Positions 1,509 through 64,000 of a stretch of 64,000 bases of DNA are shown piece by piece. Both the position numbers and the translations under genes were made by a program. The notes under the pieces were generated by a model that ran no database searches, had not been told where the DNA came from, and was given only the letters and a program-made list of their open reading frames with translations. Origin of the DNA: Clostridiales bacterium (GTDB lineage: Bacteria; Bacillota; Peptococcia; DRI-13; UBA5745). Within the stretch, counting starts at the first letter, position 1; every line of letters starts with the position of its first letter. The stretch covers positions 1 through 64,000 of the forward strand of contig WRIW01000006.1 of the NCBI GenBank assembly GCA_009782505.1, given 5' to 3'.

Positions 1509-1640
1509 TCCTCCTCTTACTTGTCTTTTTCGCTTCCGGCTTCGCCCGCTTCGTCGAACTATTCAGTCATGTACCCGATGTACACTCCCTCATACTTCTC
1601 CTTGCTTGCCTTGCCACAAGCGAAAAATCCTGCGTAACTT
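1509..1640 (-). repeat. Family A palindromic intercistronic repeat (between rpmI and rplT)
   Basis: Shares TTTCGCTTCCGGC...CCGCTTCGTCG...GTACCCGATGTACACTCCCTC...CTTGCTTGCCTTGCCACAAGCGAAAAATCCTGCGTAACTT with other copies; arms TTTTTCGCTT/AAGCGAAAAA. Confidence 0.8.
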
Positions 1641-1645
1641 GATTC

Positions 1646-5348: not shown

Positions 5349-6332
5349 ATGCTTACTGAAGAAGTCGCCGCGAATATCTACCGCATACAAGTCACCCTGC
5401 CCAATAACCCCCTGAAGTACCTGAATAGCTACCTGATCAAGGACCCTGACGGCAGCCTCCTCATCGACACCGGTTTCCGTATGGACGAGTGCCGGGCTGA
5501 CCTTCTCGCCGGGCTGGCGGAGCTGGGCGAAAGCCCCGGGGGCGTGGATATCTTCCTCACCCATCTGCACGCGGATCATGTAGGGCTAGCCGCCGAGATC
5601 GTCGGCGAAGGCAGGACGATGATGATAGGCGAGACCGACAGGGACTGGCTGGTGGGTACGATCACTTCTCAGGAGAAGTGGAACAGAAACGCCGAAAAGT
5701 ATCTCGCCGCCGGCATGAGCAGGGAAGCCATCGACGAAATGCCCACCTTCAGCCCAGTCAGGGAAGCCGCCCCCATCATCCTCGGGGACTATGTGGGCGT
5801 CAGTGAAGGTTTCGTACTGGATATCGGCGGCTACCGCCTGCGCTGCGTCGAGACCCCCGGCCACACCCCGGGGCATATGTGCCTGTGGGACGAAGAGAAG
5901 CAGCTGATGTTCACCGGCGACCACGTATTGTTCGACATTACGCCGAATATCACCGTATGGGGCAATATGGACGATTCCCTGCGGTTCTACTTAGACTCCC
6001 TGAAAGCCGCGAAGCCTTACCCGGTCAAGACTGCGCTGCCCGGCCACCGCATGACCGGGGATTTCGCCAAGCGCATCGACGACTTGCTCAGCCATCACGA
6101 CAGGAGGCTGGAAGGGGTGCTGGATATCATCGGCGGCGCCCCCGGCTTATGCGGCGTAGATATAGCGAAGAGGATGAAGTGGAAGATCCGCGCGGATAGC
6201 TGGGAAGACTTCCCCGAAGCGCAAAAGATATTCGCCATCGGCGAATGCCTCTCCCACCTTGAGTACCTGCTGCGGGAAAAGAAAATCACCGCCCGCAAGG
6301 ACGGCGATGTGAACCATTATTACCTTATTTAA
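5349..6332 (+). CDS. MBL-fold metallohydrolase
   Basis: FLTHLHADHVGLAAEIV motif, TPGHTPGHMCLWD; start at ATG 5349 after GGAGGG. Confidence 0.9.
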   Translation: MLTEEVAANIYRIQVTLPNNPLKYLNSYLIKDPDGSLLIDTGFRMDECRADLLAGLAELGESPGGVDIFLTHLHADHVGLAAEIVGEGRTMMIGETDRDWLVGTITSQEKWNRNAEKYLAAGMSREAIDEMPTFSPVREAAPIILGDYVGVSEGFVLDIGGYRLRCVETPGHTPGHMCLWDEEKQLMFTGDHVLFDITPNITVWGNMDDSLRFYLDSLKAAKPYPVKTALPGHRMTGDFAKRIDDLLSHHDRRLEGVLDIIGGAPGLCGVDIAKRMKWKIRADSWEDFPEAQKIFAIGECLSHLEYLLREKKITARKDGDVNHYYLI

Positions 6333-6334
6333 CA

Positions 6335-6540
6335 TGGGGCGCTGCCCCATACCCCGTCTCTCCGCGAGGCAAAGCCCCGCTACGTTCCATAGGCTGTGCC
6401 TGTAGGCAACCTAAGGGTGGCATTTGTCACAGGCTTGCCTATGCTATGCATGCCCTATTCGGTTGGGCGCTGCCCCATACCCCGTCTCTCCGCGAGGCAA
6501 AGCCCCGCTACGCTCCATGGGCAACGCCTGTCGCTCATAC
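6335..6540. repeat. Family B GC-rich repeat, two partial copies
   Basis: GGGCGCTGCCCCATACCCCGTCTCTCCGCGAGGCAAAGCCCCGCTACG(T/C)TCCAT occurs twice and again near 61.9-62.2 kb. Confidence 0.85.
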
Positions 6541-7788
6541 CCCCGGCCTGACCGTCTTGGCGGCGGACCAACCCGCCAGCAGCCCCGATGACCAGGCCCA
6601 TTGGAGGTTGTACCCACCGCAGGGGCCGTCCACGTCCAGTATCTCTCCCGCGGCAAACAAGCCTGGTATGAGATTGGATTCCAGGTTGAGCGCGTTAAAC
6701 TGATTTAGATCCAGGCCGCCCAAAGTGATTTGGGCGTTTTGCCATCCCACGGGCCCTTCCACGGGGAAGGTCCAGCCCTTGATCAGCGCCGCCAGGGCGT
6801 CCAACTCGTCTTTGGTCAGGCTGCCGCAGTCCCTTTCCGCCGTATCAAGATTAGCCGTCTTCATCAGTTGCACGCCGACTATCCGCTGAAATATCCCGGT
6901 GAAGAACTCCTCCAGGGGCCTGCCGGACAAGCGCTCCGCCCTTTGCTGCAGCTCCGCGGTCAAATCGGGCAAAGTGAAATCGGGCAGCAGGTCGAGTGAG
7001 ACCAGGTTGCCTTTGCTGAACCGGGAAAGGTCAAATATGGATATACCGGATAAGCCAAACTCCCGGAAGAGTATCTCTCCCCTCTCCTGGGCCAGCAGTT
7101 TATCATGGCTATACAGGGAGGCTGTACCCGTCACCCGGAGCCCGTTCAACGAGGGCAAACCCAGCTCCCGCTGCTTACTCGTCGGGCACTTCAGCCCAGC
7201 CAGCCCCGGCGTCATGTCCGTGACCGTATGCCCGAGGCTCTCCGCCAGCTTGAAGCCGCTGCCGTCGCTGCCCAGCTGGGGAGCGGCTTTGCCTCCCGTG
7301 GCCAGGATGATGGTCTGGGCTTGGATCAGCCCCCCCGCGCAGGCGAGGTGAAAGGCTTTGTCCCAGTGTATGTTCATCACGGAGAAGTCCGTCTCCACGA
7401 CGACCCCTTTTTCCTCAAGCAGAAGGCGCAGTATGTCGAGCATGGAAGAAGACGTGCCGGAAGCCGGATAGAGGCGCCCGTCCTCTTCTTCCTCGGACAT
7501 GAGGCCGGACTTGGCGAACCGATCCACGATGTCTTCCGGCGAGCACGCGGCAAAAACCCTTCGCACAAAGTCGGGCCTGTTGTACGCCTTCGTGTCGATT
7601 TTCGTGTTGCTGTAGTTGCATCGCCCGTTCCCCGAGGCCAGGAGCTTGCGGCCCACCCGCTGCCCGGCTTCAAGGATGACGACCTTGCCGTCCGCGCCCA
7701 GCCTTGACGCCGCGCCTATGCCCGCCATCATGCCGGAAGCGCCGCCGCCGATGACTGCTACGTCGTAAATGATTTCAGGCTCCGTCAT
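6535..7788 (-). CDS. NAD(P)/FAD-dependent oxidoreductase, HI0933/BaiN-like
   Basis: IYDVAVIGGGASGMMAGIGAA, GRKLLASGNGRCNYSN, CGGYNLQWAWSSG. Confidence 0.88.
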   Translation of the reverse strand: MTEPEIIYDVAVIGGGASGMMAGIGAASRLGADGKVVILEAGQRVGRKLLASGNGRCNYSNTKIDTKAYNRPDFVRRVFAACSPEDIVDRFAKSGLMSEEEEDGRLYPASGTSSSMLDILRLLLEEKGVVVETDFSVMNIHWDKAFHLACAGGLIQAQTIILATGGKAAPQLGSDGSGFKLAESLGHTVTDMTPGLAGLKCPTSKQRELGLPSLNGLRVTGTASLYSHDKLLAQERGEILFREFGLSGISIFDLSRFSKGNLVSLDLLPDFTLPDLTAELQQRAERLSGRPLEEFFTGIFQRIVGVQLMKTANLDTAERDCGSLTKDELDALAALIKGWTFPVEGPVGWQNAQITLGGLDLNQFNALNLESNLIPGLFAAGEILDVDGPCGGYNLQWAWSSGLLAGWSAAKTVRPGV

Positions 7789-19461: not shown

Positions 19462-20967
19462 CTAAAAATTCGTCTGCTTGCTCTCCTTCAGCACCACGTC
19501 GTGATGCCCGCCCTCCACGATACTGGTAGCCGACACCAGGGTCAGCTTCGCGTTTTGGTGCAGCTCGGGGATGGACATGACGCCGCAGTTGCACATGGTG
19601 GCCTTCACCTTGCTCAAGGAGTTGCGCACATTGTCTTTCAGCCCGCCGGCGTAGGGCACATAGGAGTCCACGCCCTCCTCGAAAGCCAGGCTCTCGCTTT
19701 CCCCTAAGTCATAGCGCTGCCAGTTTTTCGCCCGGTTGGAGCCTTCGCCCCAGTACTCCTTCATGTAGACGCCGCCTACCAGCACCTTATTGGTCGGGCT
19801 CTCGTCGAAGCGGGCGAAGTAGCGGCCCATCATCAGGAAGTCCGCCCCCATGGCCAGCGCCAGGGTCATGTGGTAGTCGTACACGATGCCCCCGTCGGAG
19901 CAGATGGGGATGTAGACCCCCGTCTCCTCATAGTAGGCCTGCCTGGCCGCCGCGACCTCGATGAGGGCGGTAGCCTGGCCCCTGCCTATGCCTTTCTGCT
20001 CCCGGGTGATGCAGATGGAGCCGCCGCCTATCCCCACCTTCACGAAGTCCGCCCCCGCGTCCACCAGGTAGCGGAAGCCTTCTTTATCTACCACATTACC
20101 CGCGCCCACCCTGACCGCGCCGCCATAGGCTTCCCTTATCCACGCCAGAGTGTCGCCCTGCCATTGGTTGTACCCTTCCGAAGAATCGATGCACAGCACG
20201 TCCGCGCCGGCTTCCACCAGCGCCGGTACCCTTTCCTTGTAGTCCCTTGAGTTGACGCCCGCCCCTACCTGGTAGCGTTTCTGGCTGTCAAGCAGCTCGT
20301 TTACATTCTCCTTGTGGCTGTCGTAGTCCTTGCGGAACACCATATACTTCAGCCTTTGCTCCTTGTCCACCAGAGGCAGGGCATTCAGCTTATGCTCCCA
20401 TATGATATCGTTGGCCTCGCTCAGGGTGGCGGTGTCCGGGGCGCAGATGAGGTCCTCGAAGCGCGTCATGAAGCTCTTCACCTTCGTCTCCGGGCTCATC
20501 CGGCTGGGGCGGTAATCCCGGCTGGTCACGATCCCCAGGAGCTTGCCGTTGGCGGTGCCGTCTGTGGTGACGGACATGGTAGAGTGCCCTGTCTTCGCTT
20601 TCAGCTTCAGCACTTCCTCTAATGTGCTCTCCGGGGTGATGTTGGAGTCGCTGGGTACGAAGCCGGCTTTGTAGCCCTTGACCTTAGCTATCATCTGGGC
20701 CTGGCTCTCGATGGGCTGGGAGCAGTAGATGAAGGCTATCCCCCCTTCCCTCGCCAGGGCTATAGCCATGGTATCGTCGGATACCGACTGCATGACGGCG
20801 GAAACCAGAGGGATATTGACGCCGATGCCGGGCGATTCGCCTTTGTTGAACTTGACCAGAGGGGTCCTCAAGTCGATATTGGCCGGAATACAATCATGGG
20901 ATGTAAAACCCGGCACCAGCAGGTATTCCCCGAAGGTGCGGGAGGGTTCCGGAAAGATATAAACCAT
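19462..20967 (-). CDS. guaB: IMP dehydrogenase
   Basis: [30 protein letters not shown]-type segment, [22 protein letters not shown]. Confidence 0.95.
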
Positions 20968-20982
20968 AAGCGTCTCCTCCTC

Positions 20983-21195
20983 TTTTGCTTGTCTATTTCG
21001 CTTCTGGCTACGCCCGCTTCCGCCTTCCGTTCGGTTACGTACGAGTGGTACGCGCCCTCACGTCCGACGTCGCTTGCCTTGCCAGAAACGAAATATCCTG
21101 CGCAACTTTTTCTTTTGTTTGTTTCGCTTCTGGCTACGCCCGCTTCCGCCAAAAACGAAATATCCTGCGCAACTTTATCTTTTGTTCTATTTCGT
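20983..21195 (-). repeat. Family A palindromic repeat, full unit plus flanking second half-unit
   Basis: TTTCGCTTCTGGCTACGCCCGCTTCCGCC repeated at a 126 bp offset; arms TATTTCGCTTCTGGC / GCCAGAAACGAAATA. Confidence 0.85.
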
Positions 21196-21196
21196 T

Positions 21197-21769
21197 TCAC
21201 TCAAAGATGACTTTGTCGCCTTCGAAGGCCTTGATTTTCGCCAGGGACTCTACCCTTACGCCCTTCCCTCTCAGCAGCGCTCCGCCTTCCTGGAAGCTCT
21301 TCTCGATGACAATGCCGCAGCCGGCAAGATAAGCTTCCGACTGCGCTACGATGTCCGCCAGACCAAGCAGCGCCGCCCCCGTAGCCAGGAAATCATCCAC
21401 GATAAGGATACGGTCCTCAGCCCGGATGTACTTCTGCGCCACCTGGATGTCGTAGGTCGTACCTCTGGTAAAGGACGTCACTTGGGAAAGGTAGAGGTCG
21501 CCGTCCAGATTCTTGGATTGGGTCTTTTTCGCGAATATCACCGGGCAGCAGTCGAAGTGAAGGGCGGTGATCACGGCCACCCCTATGCCGGAAGCCTCCA
21601 GGGTGAGTATCTTGTTGACGCCTTCCCCCGCGAATATGCTCTTGAATTCTTTTCCGATTTCGTCAAACAGGCTGATATCCATCTGGTGGTTGAGAAAGCT
21701 GTCCACCTTCAGAATATTGCCAGCCTTCACATGGCCCTCGTTGAGTATCCTTTCCTTAAGCAGCTCCAT
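21197..21769 (-). CDS. xpt: Xanthine phosphoribosyltransferase
   Basis: LTLEASGIGVAVITALHFDCCPVIFAKK, ILIVDDFLATGAALLGLADI; start at ATG 21769 after CGGAGGTGG. Confidence 0.93.
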   Translation of the reverse strand: MELLKERILNEGHVKAGNILKVDSFLNHQMDISLFDEIGKEFKSIFAGEGVNKILTLEASGIGVAVITALHFDCCPVIFAKKTQSKNLDGDLYLSQVTSFTRGTTYDIQVAQKYIRAEDRILIVDDFLATGAALLGLADIVAQSEAYLAGCGIVIEKSFQEGGALLRGKGVRVESLAKIKAFEGDKVIFE

Positions 21770-21839
21770 GATATCCACCTCCGATTTGCCCTATGATTTG
21801 CGTGTCAACAGGTAATCAATGAACTATATATAGTGTTAC

Positions 21840-41401: not shown

Positions 41402-42833
41402 TCTTACCGCCGCCTTCATTTCTTTTCTTTCGTTCCACTTCGATTCCCAACACATTCGCCGCGGCGCTCTCCCCCGCCGTCCAACCGGTGGAGAAAGCCG
41501 CCTGCAGATTGTACCCGCCGGTGTAGCCGTCTACATCCAGCAGCTCCCCGGCTATGTATAGCCCTTCCGCCTTCTTCGACGCCATCGTCCGGGGGTCTAC
41601 TTCCGACAGGTCTACCCCGCCCACTGTAATGATAGCTTCTTCCAGTGGCCTGGTCCCGGTGATCGGCACGCTTAGAGCTTTCAGGGCGCGGCTGATATCC
41701 CAGCGCTGAGCCCGGGTCAGCTCCGCTATCGCCTGCTCCCCGTCCAGGCCGGCCTGCTTGATCACAGCGGGGATAAGCGCCCGGGGTAGCAGGTCCACCA
41801 TGGCGTTTGCCAGCCGTTTCCTTTGGTATCGCTGGAAATCCCTCTGCAGCCGTTTATCCAGTATCTCCGGGGACAAAGCCGGCTTTAGATCGATGCGCAC
41901 GGCGTAGGTCTCGCCACTTCGCTGATAGAAACGGCTCAGGCTGAGGATGACCGGCCCCGTCAGGCCAAAATGGGCGAAGAGCATCTCCCCCTGGAACTCC
42001 GCAAGCTTCCGCTGTGAGCCGTGAGCGTCTGCCGCTTCCCCGCCGGGCGGTTCGGCGCCGGAATCGCCGTTGGTTTCAGCCGCCGCCCTGGTTGCTACCC
42101 CGCTGCGCGGTTCGTCGACGGCAGCGCCCGGCCCGGCCCATAGGGAAGCCTTTACATTTCGCAAGCTCAGCCCGGACAGAGCCCCGACCCAGCTTTCCGC
42201 CGACTCAAGAGGTACCAGAGCAGGGCTCAGTTCGGTTATCCTGTGTCCGGCTTCCCCAGCCCACGCATAACCGTCCCCAGTGGAGCCGGTCAAGGGGTAG
42301 GACATGCCCCCTGTGGCGATGACCACCGCCTTCGCCCGTATCTCCGAGTTGTCCCAGGGATCGTAGACCGAAACCCCGGCGACGCGTTGCATGCCGCCGC
42401 CGCCAGCCGGCTCCAGGATGAGCCCTTGCACCTTGCAGCCCCGGATGATCTCGACCCCCGCTTCCGCCGCCAGCCGCTCCAGGGCGTCCGCTACGTCCGC
42501 CGCCCGGTCAGACATGGGGAAGACCCGTCCCCCCCGCTCTTCCTTCGTCTCGACCCCCGCCTCTTCCAGCAGCCGGCGGATATCCTGGTGAAAAAGCCGT
42601 GAAAAGGCGCTATACAGGAACTTTCCCTTCTCCCCATACTGACGGATGAAAGGCTGGAGCTCCTTATTATTCGTGATGTTGCAGCGGCCTTTGCCCGTGA
42701 TCCTCAGCTTTCTGCCCAAGACATTGTTCTTCTCGGCTAAAATAACCCGGGCCCCCATACGGGCAGCCCGGATAGCCGCTAAAAGACCGGCGGGGCCTCC
42801 GCCCACTACCAACACATCCGTCTCTCTAAACAT
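41394..42833 (-). CDS. Second HI0933/BaiN-like flavoprotein
   Basis: VLVVGGGPAGLLAAIRAARMGARV, GRKLRITGKGRCNITN, DGYTGGYNLQAAFSTG. Confidence 0.88.
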   Translation of the reverse strand: MFRETDVLVVGGGPAGLLAAIRAARMGARVILAEKNNVLGRKLRITGKGRCNITNNKELQPFIRQYGEKGKFLYSAFSRLFHQDIRRLLEEAGVETKEERGGRVFPMSDRAADVADALERLAAEAGVEIIRGCKVQGLILEPAGGGGMQRVAGVSVYDPWDNSEIRAKAVVIATGGMSYPLTGSTGDGYAWAGEAGHRITELSPALVPLESAESWVGALSGLSLRNVKASLWAGPGAAVDEPRSGVATRAAAETNGDSGAEPPGGEAADAHGSQRKLAEFQGEMLFAHFGLTGPVILSLSRFYQRSGETYAVRIDLKPALSPEILDKRLQRDFQRYQRKRLANAMVDLLPRALIPAVIKQAGLDGEQAIAELTRAQRWDISRALKALSVPITGTRPLEEAIITVGGVDLSEVDPRTMASKKAEGLYIAGELLDVDGYTGGYNLQAAFSTGWTAGESAAANVLGIEVERKKRNEGGGKNG

Positions 42834-42835
42834 CT

Positions 42836-42996
42836 CGCTTGTCTCTTTCGCTTCTGGCGACGTCCGCTTCCTCCAAAAACTCAGTCATGTACCCACTGTA
42901 CACTCCTTCGTTTTTCTCGTTGCTTGCCTTGCCAGAAACGAAATATCCTGCGCGACCGGCTGTCTCTTTCGCTTCTGGCGACGTCCGCTTCGACGT
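42836..42996 (-). repeat. Family A palindromic repeat (between ileS and flavoprotein gene)
   Basis: GTCTCTTTCGCTTCTGGCGACGTCCGCTTC twice at 121 bp offset; arms CTTTCGCTTCTGGC / GCCAGAAACGAAAT. Confidence 0.83.
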
Positions 42997-51863: not shown

Positions 51864-52367
51864 TCACCCTTCGGGTAATAGTACCATGGCGCCGGCCCCC
51901 CGGCTCGCGTTCATATCGATGACCCGTTGATTAGCGGAGCCCCGGAAGCGCAGGCCGATATCCCGCAGCTTTTCCACATACGGACCGTCCACCAGTATAT
52001 CCGTCGCTTCCAGCAGCCTCGCGGCTTGAGGATCCTTCGCAGCTAACTCAAGGACGTCGTCGTAGACATAACCGGTATAGGTCGTTATACTCATTCCCCG
52101 CTTCCGCGCCAGTTCCGCCAGGTCGGCCATTTCCCCGGCTTGCTGGAAAGGCTCGCCGCCGGACAGGGTCAGGCCCTGTACGGAATCCGGCAGCTTCCGA
52201 ATGATACGAAACAGATCCCGCACAGACCACTCCTCGCCCTTTGCGGGGTGCCAGGTTTCCGGGTTGTGGCAGCCTGGGCAGCGGTGGGGGCAGCCTTGGG
52301 CAAATACGACGAAGCGCACCCCGGGGCCGTCGACGATACTCTCATGCAATACTCCCGCTATCCTCAT
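51864..52367 (-). CDS. nrdG: Anaerobic ribonucleotide reductase activating protein
   Basis: MRIAGVLHESIVDGPGVRFVVFAQGCPHRCPGCHNPETW; upstream part of the ORF is repeat-derived. Confidence 0.95.
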   Translation of the reverse strand: MRIAGVLHESIVDGPGVRFVVFAQGCPHRCPGCHNPETWHPAKGEEWSVRDLFRIIRKLPDSVQGLTLSGGEPFQQAGEMADLAELARKRGMSITTYTGYVYDDVLELAAKDPQAARLLEATDILVDGPYVEKLRDIGLRFRGSANQRVIDMNASRGAGAMVLLPEG

Positions 52368-52371
52368 CTCA

Positions 52372-52600
52372 CTCGTCCTTTTCGGCTCCGGCTGCGTCCA
52401 CATCCTCATTCTACTCAGTCACATACCATCAGAAGTATGCTCCTTCGTGAATTTCGTCGCTTGCCTTGCCGGAACCGAAAATTACTTCGTGAGACATACT
52501 GTCGTCCTTTTCGGCTCCGGCTGCGCCCACATCCTCATTCTACTCAGTCACATACCGTCAGAAGTATGCTCCCTCGTGAATTTCGTCGCTTGCTTGTCAA
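52372..52600 (-). repeat. Family A repeat, two tandem copies (129 bp offset) between nrdD and nrdG
   Basis: TCGTCCTTTTCGGCTCCGGCTGCG(T/C)CCACATCCTCATTCTACTCAGTCACATACC(A/G)TCAGAAGTATGCTCC(T/C)TCGTGAATTTCGTCGCTTGC twice; arms TTTTCGGCTCCGGC/GCCGGAACCGAAAA. Confidence 0.87.
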
Positions 52601-54732
52601 CCGCCGCTGCTCACCGGGGGAAGCTTCATATGGGTACGGCGGGCTTTCGCTTCTGCCAGCTTGCTGTCGTTGAAGTTGTCCAGGGTGGACAGGTACCCCG
52701 TGATCCGGCGCACCCGGCTTATGCCCGTGCCGCCGCACTTCGGGCAGTGGTCAGTCTCGATGACGCCGTTGAACCCGCATTCTTTGCAGATGTCCACCGG
52801 GAAGTTCACCGCGGCGTAACCCATGTCGTTGTCATACATCGCCCGCACCAGGGTCTCGAAGGCCTCCAGGTTGCCCTTTGGCGCAGAGGACAGCTCCACG
52901 TAAGAGATGTGGCCCGCGTTGCAGTACTTATGGTATGGGCCTTCCAGCGCTATTTTCCGCAGGGCGTCGATTTCATACTCCACGGGGATGTGGAAGGAAT
53001 TCGTGTACCATTCCTTATCGGTGACCCCCGGTATGACGCCGTACTTCGCGGCGTCCAGCCTGGTGAATACCCCGGACAGCCCCTCCGCCGGCGTCGCCAG
53101 TAGGCTGAAGTTCAAATTATGCTGCTTGCCGGCTTCGTCGCAGCGCAGCCGCATATGGCTGATGATGGACAAGCCCAAGGCCTGGGCGCTGTCGGATTCG
53201 CCGTGATGGCTTCCCGTCAGGCACTTCAGGCACTCCGCCAAGCCGATGAACCCCATGCTTAGGGTGCCATGGCGTATAGCCTTCTCCACCGGGTCGTTTG
53301 GCCCCAGATCCTCGCTGTCCACATAAAGGTGCTGGCCCATCATGAAGGGGAAGTCCTTCATCTTCAGGTTCTTCTGCACCTCATAGCGGTTGAGGAGCTG
53401 CTTGACCACTAAGTCCACCGCCTCGTCCAGGAGTTGCCAGAATCCGGCCAGGTTCCTCTCCGCCCGGATGGCCAACCTGGGCAGATTGATGGTGGTGAAG
53501 GACAGATTGCCCCTTCCGTTGGTCACGTTCATCCCGTGGATATCGCTGATCACCCTGGTCCTGCAGCCCATGTAGGCGACTTCCTCGTCCCGGTAAGGCG
53601 TATTGAAGGTGGAGTCCTGGAAAGAGAAGTTGGGAAACAGCCGGGAACAGGCCACCCGCATACTCAGAAGGAATAGGTCGTAGTTGGGGTCTTCCGGCTC
53701 ATAGTTGACCCCGTCCTTGACTTTAAAGCAGGTATTGGGGAACAGGGGCGTCTCCCCCCTGCCCAGCCCTTTCTCATAGGCCAGGAGAAACTTCTCCGTG
53801 ACCAGGCGGCCGCTCCAGGAGGTATCCGTGCCGAAATTGATGCTGGAGAAGGGCACCTGTGCCCCCGCCCTGCTGTGCATGGTGTTGAGGTTGTAGATGA
53901 AGCCTTCCATCGCCTGGTAAGTCTCGTCCTCCGTCCGCTTCATCGCCGCTTCGTTCAGCTTCTCCTCGTCGGCGGTAAGCCCCAGCTCGCCCAGGTCTGC
54001 CCTGAGCATTTTCTTCTGCCGCTCGAACTCCAGTTCCACATAGCGGGCCATATCCCGGTCGAAGTAGGCGAAGGACTGCCCGCCGTGCATGTCGTTCTGG
54101 TTGCTTTGGAGGATGATGGCCGCCAGGGCCGCGGCCGTCTTTATCCCTTTGGGCGGGCGTATATAGCCATGGCCGTTGTTGAAGCCCTCTTTAAGGAGCC
54201 TGTCTACCGGTATCTGCAGGCAGGTCACGGTCTTGCCGTACCAGGAGAGGTCGTGGATGTAGATGTCCCCGTCCGCGTGGGCAGCCGCTTCGTCCGGGGG
54301 CACGACCCGCTTCAGGTAGTAGTTTTTCGACGCTGCCTCGGATATCTGCAGTACCTTCGCCGAAGGGGAGTTGCCTACGTTGGCGTTATCCCGGTTAGTC
54401 TCCTTGAGTATCTCCGCCACGGCGTCCATAAGCTCCGTCCGGCCCTCGCGCACCATGGAACGCTTCTCCCGGTACAGGATATACGCCTTGGCCGTCTGGG
54501 CGTGGCCGCGCTCGATAAGGGTCTTCTCCACGATGTCCTGAACCTCTTCCACGGTAAACACATGGTCCTCCGGGTATGTCTTCATTTCCCGGATGGCGTC
54601 CAGAGTAAGCTCCATAGCCGTCTGGCGGTCGTCGCCGCCCACGGACTGCGCAGCTTTAAATATCGCGTTAGTGATCAACGTATCGTTGAAAGGGACTATC
54701 CTGTCGTCGCGTTTTCGTATCTGCGTTAACAT
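52597..54732 (-). CDS. nrdD: Anaerobic ribonucleoside-triphosphate reductase
   Basis: ATP-cone N-term, GYL/YAAVNFPVDICKECGFNGVI...CPKCGGTGISRVRRITGYLSTLDNFNDSKLAE. Confidence 0.97.
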   Translation of the reverse strand: MLTQIRKRDDRIVPFNDTLITNAIFKAAQSVGGDDRQTAMELTLDAIREMKTYPEDHVFTVEEVQDIVEKTLIERGHAQTAKAYILYREKRSMVREGRTELMDAVAEILKETNRDNANVGNSPSAKVLQISEAASKNYYLKRVVPPDEAAAHADGDIYIHDLSWYGKTVTCLQIPVDRLLKEGFNNGHGYIRPPKGIKTAAALAAIILQSNQNDMHGGQSFAYFDRDMARYVELEFERQKKMLRADLGELGLTADEEKLNEAAMKRTEDETYQAMEGFIYNLNTMHSRAGAQVPFSSINFGTDTSWSGRLVTEKFLLAYEKGLGRGETPLFPNTCFKVKDGVNYEPEDPNYDLFLLSMRVACSRLFPNFSFQDSTFNTPYRDEEVAYMGCRTRVISDIHGMNVTNGRGNLSFTTINLPRLAIRAERNLAGFWQLLDEAVDLVVKQLLNRYEVQKNLKMKDFPFMMGQHLYVDSEDLGPNDPVEKAIRHGTLSMGFIGLAECLKCLTGSHHGESDSAQALGLSIISHMRLRCDEAGKQHNLNFSLLATPAEGLSGVFTRLDAAKYGVIPGVTDKEWYTNSFHIPVEYEIDALRKIALEGPYHKYCNAGHISYVELSSAPKGNLEAFETLVRAMYDNDMGYAAVNFPVDICKECGFNGVIETDHCPKCGGTGISRVRRITGYLSTLDNFNDSKLAEAKARRTHMKLPPVSSGG

Positions 54733-54747
54733 AGTATAAACCTCCCT

Positions 54748-54975
54748 GACTTGTCTTTTCCGTCTCTGACTGCGTCCGCTTCGTCGTTCAGCTCAATCAC
54801 ATATTGAAGATATGCTCATTCGCCGCCCTCCTTGCTTGCCTTGTCAGAGCCACAAAATCCTGCGTCACTTTTTTGTCTTTTCCGTCTCTGACGGACATCT
54901 GCGTAATTGTGCGCTTCGGATAGCAGATTGGAGTCCGCAGGACTGGCGCTTCGTCGTTCAGCTCATTTTTTCAAG
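54748..54975 (-). repeat. Family A repeat between nrdR and nrdD
   Basis: TTGTCTTTTCCGTCTCTGAC at 54751 and 54873; arm CTCTGAC/GTCAGAG. Confidence 0.78.
54907..54952. repeat. Family C repeat copy 2
   Basis: TTGTGCGCTTCGGATAGCAGATTGGAGTCCGCAGGACTGGCGCTT, related to 50556-50601. Confidence 0.7.
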
Positions 54976-59252: not shown

Positions 59253-59261
59253 ATATCGCTC

Positions 59262-59435
59262 CTCCTTACTTGCCTTTTTTGCTTCCGGCTGCGCCCGCTT
59301 CCTCAGCCCCTTCGGTCACGTACCGTCAGAAGTACGCTCCCTCGCGGCTTTCGTCGCTTGACTTGCCAGAAACAAAAAATTCTGCGTAACTTTTAACCTT
59401 TTTTGCTTCCGGCTGCGCCCGCTTCCTCAGCGCTC
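59262..59435 (-). repeat. Family A repeat between pgm and pgi
   Basis: CCTTTTTTGCTTCCGGCTGCGCCCGCTTCCTCAGC at both ends, 124 bp offset; distal copy overlaps the pgm stop codon. Confidence 0.85.
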
Positions 59436-61884: not shown

Positions 61885-61890
61885 TTGCCG

Positions 61891-62202
61891 TATGTCGCTT
61901 CCTTTTCCTATGTTCGATGGGGCTCTGCCCCATACCCCGTCGCTCCGCGAGGCGAGGCCCCGCTGCGCTCCATAGGCTGCGCCAGCTTGCGTCCTAAGGG
62001 TGGTATTTGCCCAGGCTTGCCTATGCGCCGTGCTCAGTATGTCGCTTCCCTTTCCTATGCTCGATGGGGCTCTGCCCCATACCCCGTCGCTCCGCGAGGC
62101 GGGGCCCCGCTACGCTCCATAGGCTGCGCCTGCTTGCGTCCTAAGGGTGGTATTTGCCCAGGCTTGCCTATGCGCCGCGCTCAGTATGTCGCTTCCCTTT
62201 CC
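61891..62202. repeat. Family B repeat: two tandem 147-bp units plus partial third boundary
   Basis: TATGTCGCTTCC begins at 61891, 62038 and 62185 (147 bp exactly each); unit contains GGGGCTCTGCCCCATACCCCGTCGCTCCGCGAGGC. Confidence 0.92.
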
Positions 62203-63060
62203 TTGAGTTCCTTTAGCAAAGCCCGGTAGCGGCGGTAGCGGCCTTCGTCCACCGCGCCCTCCCGCGCGCCCTGGCTGACGCCGCAGTCACGGTCCTGATC
62301 ATGGATACAGGAGCGAAATCGGCAGTTTGCCGCCAGGGGCTCGAATTCGGGGTAGTACTCCGCCAGCCCCGCCGACGTCACCCCTTCCGGCATGAGCAGT
62401 TGGCTGAATCCCGGGGTGTCCGCCACCCAGCCGCCGATAGCCAGAGGTATCCATTCCACATGGCGGGTGGTATGCCTGCCCCGCCCCAGCTTGTCGCTGA
62501 TTTCCCCGGTCTTTAATTCTATGCCGGGTTCTATCCTGTTCAGCAGGCTTGATTTGCCTACCCCTGATGGCCCCGCAAGCACCGTCATCCTACCCGCAAG
62601 CCTCTCGCCAAGCTCCTTGACGCCCGCGCCGCTTACCGCGCAGGTGGCAAGCTGCTCCACCCCAGCCGCATCGTATGGCTTCCGATACCCTTCCAGCACC
62701 GCCTGACCGGCTAAATCCATCTTATTCCAGCATAGGAGCGGCTGGATGCTTTCCGCCTGTATCATGATCAACAACCTGTCCAGAAGCCACATATCCGGTT
62801 GAGGCTGATCCGCCGCCAACACGATGAGGGCCAGATCCACATTCGCTACGGGCGGCCTGAGCAGCCTGTTGCTTCGTGGGGCGACTTCCTCGACTATGCC
62901 TTTGCGCCCGGATTCATCCACCACGCCAAAGGCAACGATATCCCCGGGCAACACCTCCTGCTTCTCCCGGCGGAAACGCCCCCTGAGCCTGCATTCCCAC
63001 AGCCCATGGGCGCCCGCATCCACGGTGTAGAAGCTTCCCACGCCCTTCAGCACCCTGCCC
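62181..63060 (-). CDS. rsgA: Ribosome small-subunit GTPase RsgA (start codon uncertain; ORF open to 63434)
   Basis: VLAGPSGVGKSSLLNRI, GRGRHTTRHVEW, ADTPGFSQL, zinc region CRFRSCIHDQDRDCGV; upstream in-frame part is repeat-derived. Confidence 0.9.
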
Positions 63061-63066
63061 GGTAAC

Positions 63067-63285
63067 TTGTCTGTTTCGCTTCTGGCGACGCCCACTTCCG
63101 GCTCCCGTTCAGTTTCGTACGTTTGGTACGCGCCTTCACGTTCGCCGTCGTTTGTCTTGCCAGAACCGAAACATCCTGCGTTACCCTCGCATTTGTCTGT
63201 TTCGCTTCTGGCGACGCCCACTTCCGGCTCCCGTTCAGTTTCGTACGTTTGGTACGCGCCTTCACGTTCGCCGTCGTTTGTCTTG
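63067..63285 (-). repeat. Family A repeat, two tandem copies with 93-bp identical segment (126 bp offset)
   Basis: 63067-63159 and 63193-63285 read identically. Confidence 0.92.
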
Positions 63286-63318
63286 TTTCTTTCCCCGATG
63301 ATTCCACACCTTTCTGAG

Positions 63319-63522
63319 AGGAGATACGCGAGGGAGCGTACTTCAGATGGTACGTGACCGAGCAGTTCGACGAAACGGCCGCAGTCAGTACCTATGCCGC
63401 TACTAAGTGACGCCGGATTTTTGGATTCTGACAAGGCAAGCGACGAATGTCGCGAGGGAGCGTACTTCTGACGGTACGTGACCGAGCAGACAGAGGATGC
63501 GGCTGCCGTCAGAATCCAAAAA
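63319..63522 (+). repeat. Family A repeat in opposite orientation, partial plus full copy (124 bp offset)
   Basis: CGCGAGGGAGCGTACTTC at both; full copy bounded by perfect 15-bp arms TTTTTGGATTCTGAC (63418-63432) / GTCAGAATCCAAAAA (63508-63522). Confidence 0.88.
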
Positions 63523-63528
63523 GACGCG

Positions 63529-64000
63529 TCAGTCGGGTCCGGGGCCTTGGCTGACGACTATATCGATCGGCGTCCCTTCCTGCATCTGGGTCTCCCCTGC
63601 CGGCGTCTGCCGGATGATCGTATCCTTCGCCCAAGTCCAGCTCATCTCATAACTCGTGTACCCGAACTCTATCCCCAGCGAACGGGCCGCTTCCTGGGCG
63701 TCCGACACAGGCATGCCCACGAAGGACTGGACCCTGACCAGCTTCACCACCGGCCCCAGGCTGATCACGACGTCTACCTTGTCTCCAGGCTTCATCTGCG
63801 TATCCGCCTCGGGGTTTTGGGCGATGATGTGCCCTTCCGGCGTGTCGCTGTCGTTGATGGTATCCACATTGCCCAGTACCAGCCCGGAGTTGCTCAAGGC
63901 GATGATCGCCCCCTGCTCCGTCAGCATGGACAGATTGGGCGCCGGATATGTCGCTTGCCCCCGGCTTAGGGTCAGCCGCACTGTACTGCCCGGCCGTACC
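63529..64000 (-). CDS. C-terminal PASTA repeats of a Ser/Thr protein kinase (partial at window edge)
   Basis: PASTA-type repeats PNLSMLTEQGAIIALSNSGLVLGNVDTINDSDTPEGHIIAQNPEADTQMKPGDKVDVVISLG; upstream of rsgA as in PrkC loci. Confidence 0.85.
   Translation of the reverse strand, partial: VRPGSTVRLTLSRGQATYPAPNLSMLTEQGAIIALSNSGLVLGNVDTINDSDTPEGHIIAQNPEADTQMKPGDKVDVVISLGPVVKLVRVQSFVGMPVSDAQEAARSLGIEFGYTSYEMSWTWAKDTIIRQTPAGETQMQEGTPIDIVVSQGPGPD

Follow-up and report, generated by a model that had tools for sequence, protein, structure and literature searches.

A mobile, covarying hairpin repeat at gene borders of a Clostridiales genome, probably a distant relative of ERIC

ERIC repeats, a common tool of strain typing, have been known since about 1990, but it is not settled where they came from, which enzyme mobilises them and what they do. 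ERIC (also IRU or RU-1) is a 127-bp enterobacterial repetitive intergenic consensus that folds as one long, imperfect hairpin whose tip and loops carry conserved motifs, and its dispersed, non-coding copies lie between genes, at gene borders. Its reported range is the Enterobacteriaceae and Vibrionaceae (PMC10969869), which keeps it within the gamma-proteobacteria, and a TA duplication is one of its hallmarks (PMC2759123). In Yersinia, ERIC copies at gene 3' ends expose an RNase E site and lower transcript levels, depending on orientation (PMC2229807, PMC10969869). Two other repeats are comparable to the element described here, by description only. The Correia (NEMIS) elements of Neisseria are MITEs whose transcripts fold into hairpins that are cleaved by RNase III (PMC2229807, PMC10969869). 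RUP of S. pneumoniae, an IS630-type MITE, is also a small non-coding intergenic mobile repeat, and it recalls some relatives of our element that bear terminal inverted repeats (TIR), for which a TA target is suggested (PMC2229807); unlike our element, RUP has no described conserved folding core.

Copies in the window and in other genomes

The window, by which we mean the whole 64,000-nucleotide stretch of DNA analysed, comes from the draft genome of a Clostridiales bacterium (83% complete, 73 contigs). An earlier note on this DNA had counted at least eight loci sharing one repeat unit, and all eight were recovered by direct-repeat search, BLASTN and a covariance model, R1, built from 18 full copies of this genome. 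The same methods gave a total of 8 full copies (129-133 nt) and 4 partial ones, all of them R1 matches. The copy at 20980..21109 (minus strand, R1 cmsearch score 141.3 bits) lies between xpt (21197-21778) and guaB (19462-20967), with its 3' end adjoining the guaB Shine-Dalgarno sequence; this guaB is nearest (76%) to that of uncultured Clostridia/Oscillospiraceae. The predicted fold has an energy of -60.2 kcal/mol, compared with -33.6 +/- 3.1 in shuffled sequences (z -8.6). In tandem with this copy, on its 5' side, is an internally deleted mini-hairpin at 21110..21176 (minus strand; R1 cmsearch 35 bits, and sequence) that retains the outer stem and has lost the core. We considered whether a longer composite of mini-hairpin and full hairpin was the true unit and rejected this, as most upstream remnants do not fold by themselves.

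Six of the remaining full copies are also on the minus strand. The copy at 1512..1641 has a 3' end that enters the Shine-Dalgarno sequence of a 117-aa ORF (1146-1499, ATG start), and that at 42830..42959 occupies the spacer between ileS and a gene of the aminoacetone-oxidase FAD family. The copy at 52364..52496 fills the nrdD/nrdG spacer, with the nrdG ATG directly after its 3' arm, and a 5'-truncated tandem copy (52507..52610, minus strand) sits directly behind the nrdD stop; a further copy, at 54742..54871, is upstream of nrdD. The copy at 59261..59393 is upstream of a glucose-6-phosphate isomerase-like gene, whose Shine-Dalgarno sequence adjoins it, and that at 63058..63187 is in the rsgA start region and has the outer arms GGTAAC/GTTACC. 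Two partial copies consisting of the core only follow, one in tandem (63212..63285, minus strand) and one inverted (63316..63383, plus strand). The eighth full copy (63404..63536, plus strand) is reversed relative to the neighbouring copies, and its 3' end overlaps the TGA stop of an antisense ORF at 63529-63981. Many copies are in tandem or have the 3' remnant of another copy just before them.

The window also holds a second, GC-rich repeat at 61890-62183, made of two 147-nt tandem units that are 96% alike, with relatives at 6307-6531; the ERIC-like model gave no match to this repeat at either place. An Rfam L20_leader was found at 2409-2526 on the minus strand with 59.6 bits, barely over threshold.

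A covariance model search of the whole 1.98-Mb genome returned 44 matches; half of these, 22, were full-length and scored over 100 bits. The copies are dispersed and non-coding: the unit holds no ORF, and a called gene covers just 2 of 41 copies. Between 3 and 25 copies per genome were found in other members of the genus and family. The element is absent from most of the order and returns with up to 35 copies per genome in another family of the same class (f10, genera g23 and g30; 47 genomes of the class were sampled), and phylum-wide, 27 of 400 genomes had matches, some of them weak. No similar DNA turned up when plasmids and phages were searched with the window copy.

Several distant copies are located within rRNA operons or immediately next to tRNA genes. 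The rRNA-operon copies (L286 in genome G245, L142 in G005, L289 and L270) include two in one 16S-23S spacer, and the others are upstream of 16S and 5S. In Listeria fleischmannii (L106), two related hairpins at 2312-2425 and 6589-6716 each precede a hairpin resembling an intrinsic terminator, with a T run, and at the latter the identical terminator sequence stands on either side of the element. The arrangement may reflect an RNA transcribed on its own, or the insertion of the element into a terminator.

Fold, covariation and strand

In the direction of the gene that follows it in most window copies, the unit is a single rod-like imperfect hairpin of about 130 nt. Its outermost helix of 4-6 bp encloses an asymmetric loop, GCAGGAT/GACAAG, followed by a stem of 14-15 bp (P1) that is free in sequence. 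Beyond P1 come a conserved loop, CAAGGC/ACGCAG, a variable middle stem and, toward the tip, the G.A-rich loops GCGAGG/CCGAGC and GGGAGC/GTGACC; the tip itself, CGTAC-n-GTACG, is conserved. The internal loops are mismatched, yet they are the best conserved parts across classes.

Covarying end stems, described in the earlier note, are present, and further covarying helices lie inside. Double changes were seen at 19 of 32 pairs in the 18 own-genome copies and at 27 of 32 when relatives were included (53 copies). The 53-copy alignment had 318 compensatory cells compared with 84 +/- 9 in shuffles, which ignore kinship, and slid structures paired just 33-42% of its cells. Since the shuffles are blind to relatedness, we ran a tree-aware null on sequence-only MAFFT alignments, using our own implementation modelled on R-scape, not R-scape itself. 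All 4 significant column pairs among the 18 own copies fell on the predicted structure, as did 15 of 16 among 81 copies from f10, the sixteenth being one column off.

The wobbles were asymmetric between strands. On the sense strand of the own copies there were 41 G.U and 6 A.C wobbles, and in columns with a Watson-Crick majority the counts were 120 vs 33 and 92 vs 36, from model-fitted alignments in which a mild bias is possible. The G.U excess on the sense strand, together with the conserved internal loops, indicates that one folded strand is selected, beyond mere palindromy. Covariation beyond the tree and strand-asymmetric wobbles thus bear out the suggestion of a selected RNA or ssDNA structure, and they argue for selection on one folded single strand, whether RNA or ssDNA.

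Siting at gene borders and mobility

The earlier note had placed most copies between a stop codon and the ribosome-binding site of the next gene, and their placement relative to genes is not random. By a simple, crude gene caller trained on the loci, 22 of 36 own-genome copies had the 3' end no more than 16 nt from a gene, against a null mean of 10.6 (p<=0.0005), and 6 of 36 had the 5' end so placed. By the same caller the 3' end was this close in 69 of 75 f10 copies, compared with 18.9 expected from uniform placement, and the 5' end in 2 of 75. In its own genome the element mostly has its 3' end at the Shine-Dalgarno sequence of a co-directional gene, and most copies are co-directional with both neighbours. 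In f10 the outer helix almost always adjoins or overlaps the stop codon of a neighbouring gene on the opposite strand (antisense in 66 of the 69 close cases). Deposited annotation gives this antisense-stop geometry on plasmids of Allorhizobium, Agrobacterium, Sphingobium, Shinella and Novosphingobium, and also at E. coli ybhI and in Rahnella.

Presence and absence at syntenic sites bear out the earlier suggestion of a mobile palindrome. On syntenic contigs the spacer between gcvT and gcvH (both named from sequence) is empty in genome G035 and holds a 155-bp insertion in G041 that starts right behind the gcvT stop. The xpt-guaB insertion is absent from two congeners. Downstream of secA the element is found in four g23 species with wholly different stem sequences and the same fold; it is truncated in another species and absent or nearly erased in others. 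Two further syntenic sites likewise show presence and absence. Neither GGGC nor GCCC occurs at the empty gcvT site, so the outer helix arrived with the insert, and we rejected an inverted target duplication as its origin. At another site host codons do supply one strand of the outer helix (Gln/Glu-Asp codons at a gene end).

In some genomes the hairpin lies within terminal inverted repeats of 20-30 bp of differing sequence, in the manner of a MITE. Such repeats, of at least five different sequences, enclose the core at L151, L165, L191, L194-L198, L211, L213, L215, L224, L271 and L276; some of them start with CTAG or TAAGG, so that an insertion can provide a stop codon. Window copies are mostly without outer inverted repeats, and 1 of 91 f10 copies has them. 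The TIR-bearing relatives begin TAAGG/CTAG; the sole clean empty site, that at gcvT, lies in A/T-rich DNA and is ambiguous for a TA duplication. An autonomous IS with the TIR of these copies was looked for and discarded, as the pattern matched just the two MITE copies themselves. REP/BIME elements with a RAYT, which pair a 20-40 nt palindrome with a Y1 transposase, were also rejected: the unit is 130 nt, and the Y1 domain PF01797 was absent from the element's own genome, which is 83% complete.

Relationship to ERIC and possible role

The path to ERIC led from the Listeria fleischmannii copy through a BLASTN match to alphaproteobacterial plasmids, whose copies have a core that we took to resemble ERIC and then tested with covariance models. 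Model R2 was built from Bacillota copies only and R3 from four enterobacterial ERICs only. R2 matched the E. coli ybhI ERIC across all 130 positions (25.4 bits, E 1e-5, 6 kb searched). At E<=1 in the 64-kb window, R3 gave six matches, all of them elements in the right orientation, and so found six of the eight full copies and nothing else. The best was the nrdD/nrdG copy, over the full model (E 7e-7), followed by the copies at 63.4 kb (E 2e-5), in the ileS spacer (E 4e-5), at 1.5 kb (positions 1526-1627, E 1e-3), at 59.3 kb (E 6e-3) and upstream of nrdD (E 0.06). Among 34 element loci from Bacillota, alphaproteobacterial plasmids and Listeria, R3 had 17 matches, the best with E 1.5e-9. The scores of both models were modest, at 25-43 bits. 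R3 at E<=1 had no direct match to any f10 copy tested, and f10 is tied to ERIC via the own-genome copies and R2, plus the common motifs AAGGCGGC and CAACGCAG. ERIC and the elements have AAGGC, GGAGC.TAC, GTGAC, ACGCAG and GACGAG in common, at corresponding positions of the hairpin.

Because R2 and R3 match reciprocally, we file the window element in the ERIC superfamily, probably (at about 80%) as a distant relative of E. coli ERIC. The earlier note had recognised no named family; by the reciprocal models the element would be of the ERIC kind. It resembles ERIC in length, hairpin form and siting, down to the antisense stop codon at the 3' end, which is likewise present in the copies of E. coli ybhI and Rahnella. 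Unlike ERIC, the window elements have arms that vary freely with compensation and occur in tandem and internally deleted forms, and the own-genome copies mostly adjoin a Shine-Dalgarno sequence in sense orientation at the 3' end and have no conserved TA-flanked ends that we could see. The host, a member of the Bacillota, is outside the reported range of ERIC, which is a range and not a trait of the element. The matches point to ERIC relatives on plasmids of alphaproteobacteria as well as in several lineages of the Bacillota, where the open-access papers searched do not report them.

A new class of structured RNA, unrelated to ERIC and with a similar hairpin by chance, seems improbable to us. 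It would account for the lack of any Rfam match to the element at gathering and relaxed thresholds, for the modest bit scores and for the failure of the ERIC-only model on f10. Against it, the reciprocal matches are specific, each R3 match in the window being an element, primary motifs are shared at corresponding positions, and the same siting beside antisense stop codons recurs. A different question is whether the folded strand has a function at all, or whether this is a pure DNA palindrome in which template switching during replication corrects one arm from the other. The outermost helix of 4-6 bp is almost without wobbles (one pair is AU in 29 copies, GC in 22 and GU in none), its 3' strand can be host sequence (the first tRNA bases at L132, and the gene-end codons mentioned above), and at the own-genome loci L116 and L128 the outer internal loop, conserved elsewhere, has become part of a perfect palindrome. 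But template switching would remove the mismatched internal loops, which are the best conserved parts, and predicts no strand preference, whereas one strand has three to seven times as many G.U as A.C wobbles. This explanation is unlikely overall and already weakened for the core.

Strand-specific folding suits ssDNA as well as RNA, and an attC-like or IS200-like site could be imagined, in which a bottom-strand hairpin by a stop codon is cut as ssDNA for DNA exchange or insertion. As in integron cassettes, the gene that ends beside an f10 copy lies antisense to the selected strand. We regard such a site as very unlikely, given that the genome (83% complete) has no Y1 transposase, the neighbours are ordinary housekeeping genes (guaB, secA, nrdDG) and not cassettes, most own-genome copies are co-directional with both neighbours, and no attC R-box motifs were seen by eye.

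The preferred reading is a non-autonomous, MITE-like mobile hairpin of the ERIC superfamily in a member of the Bacillota. A host transposase would move copies in trans, and insertions away from gene borders would be purged, so that only border copies survive. A co-transcribed sense strand would form an RNA hairpin, and this would determine how the mRNAs on either side are processed or how stable they are, as with Yersinia ERIC. RNA processing is the likeliest role by this analogy, and the copies in the co-directional nrdD-nrdG, xpt-guaB and ileS-FAD gene spacers appear placed to act in that way. The main fact that an RNA-processing model leaves unexplained is that the selected strand in f10 is antisense to the adjoining gene; there, the target of selection may be ssDNA while the element transposes, or antisense read-through. 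More tentatively, and with the odds somewhat against it, the ERIC core could be a cross-phylum strand-specific module (RNA or ssDNA), carried on varied mobile ends, be they MITE inverted repeats of several unrelated sequences or none, and steered 3' end first to gene borders by a shared recognition step, not by chance and purging alone.

The element is a genuine, mobile, structurally constrained repeat. With the hairpins of alphaproteobacterial plasmids, the homologous covarying family in Bacillota amounts to hundreds of independent copies, which allow direct tests of structure, strand, insertion rule (stop codons or ribosome-binding sites) and mobilising partner.
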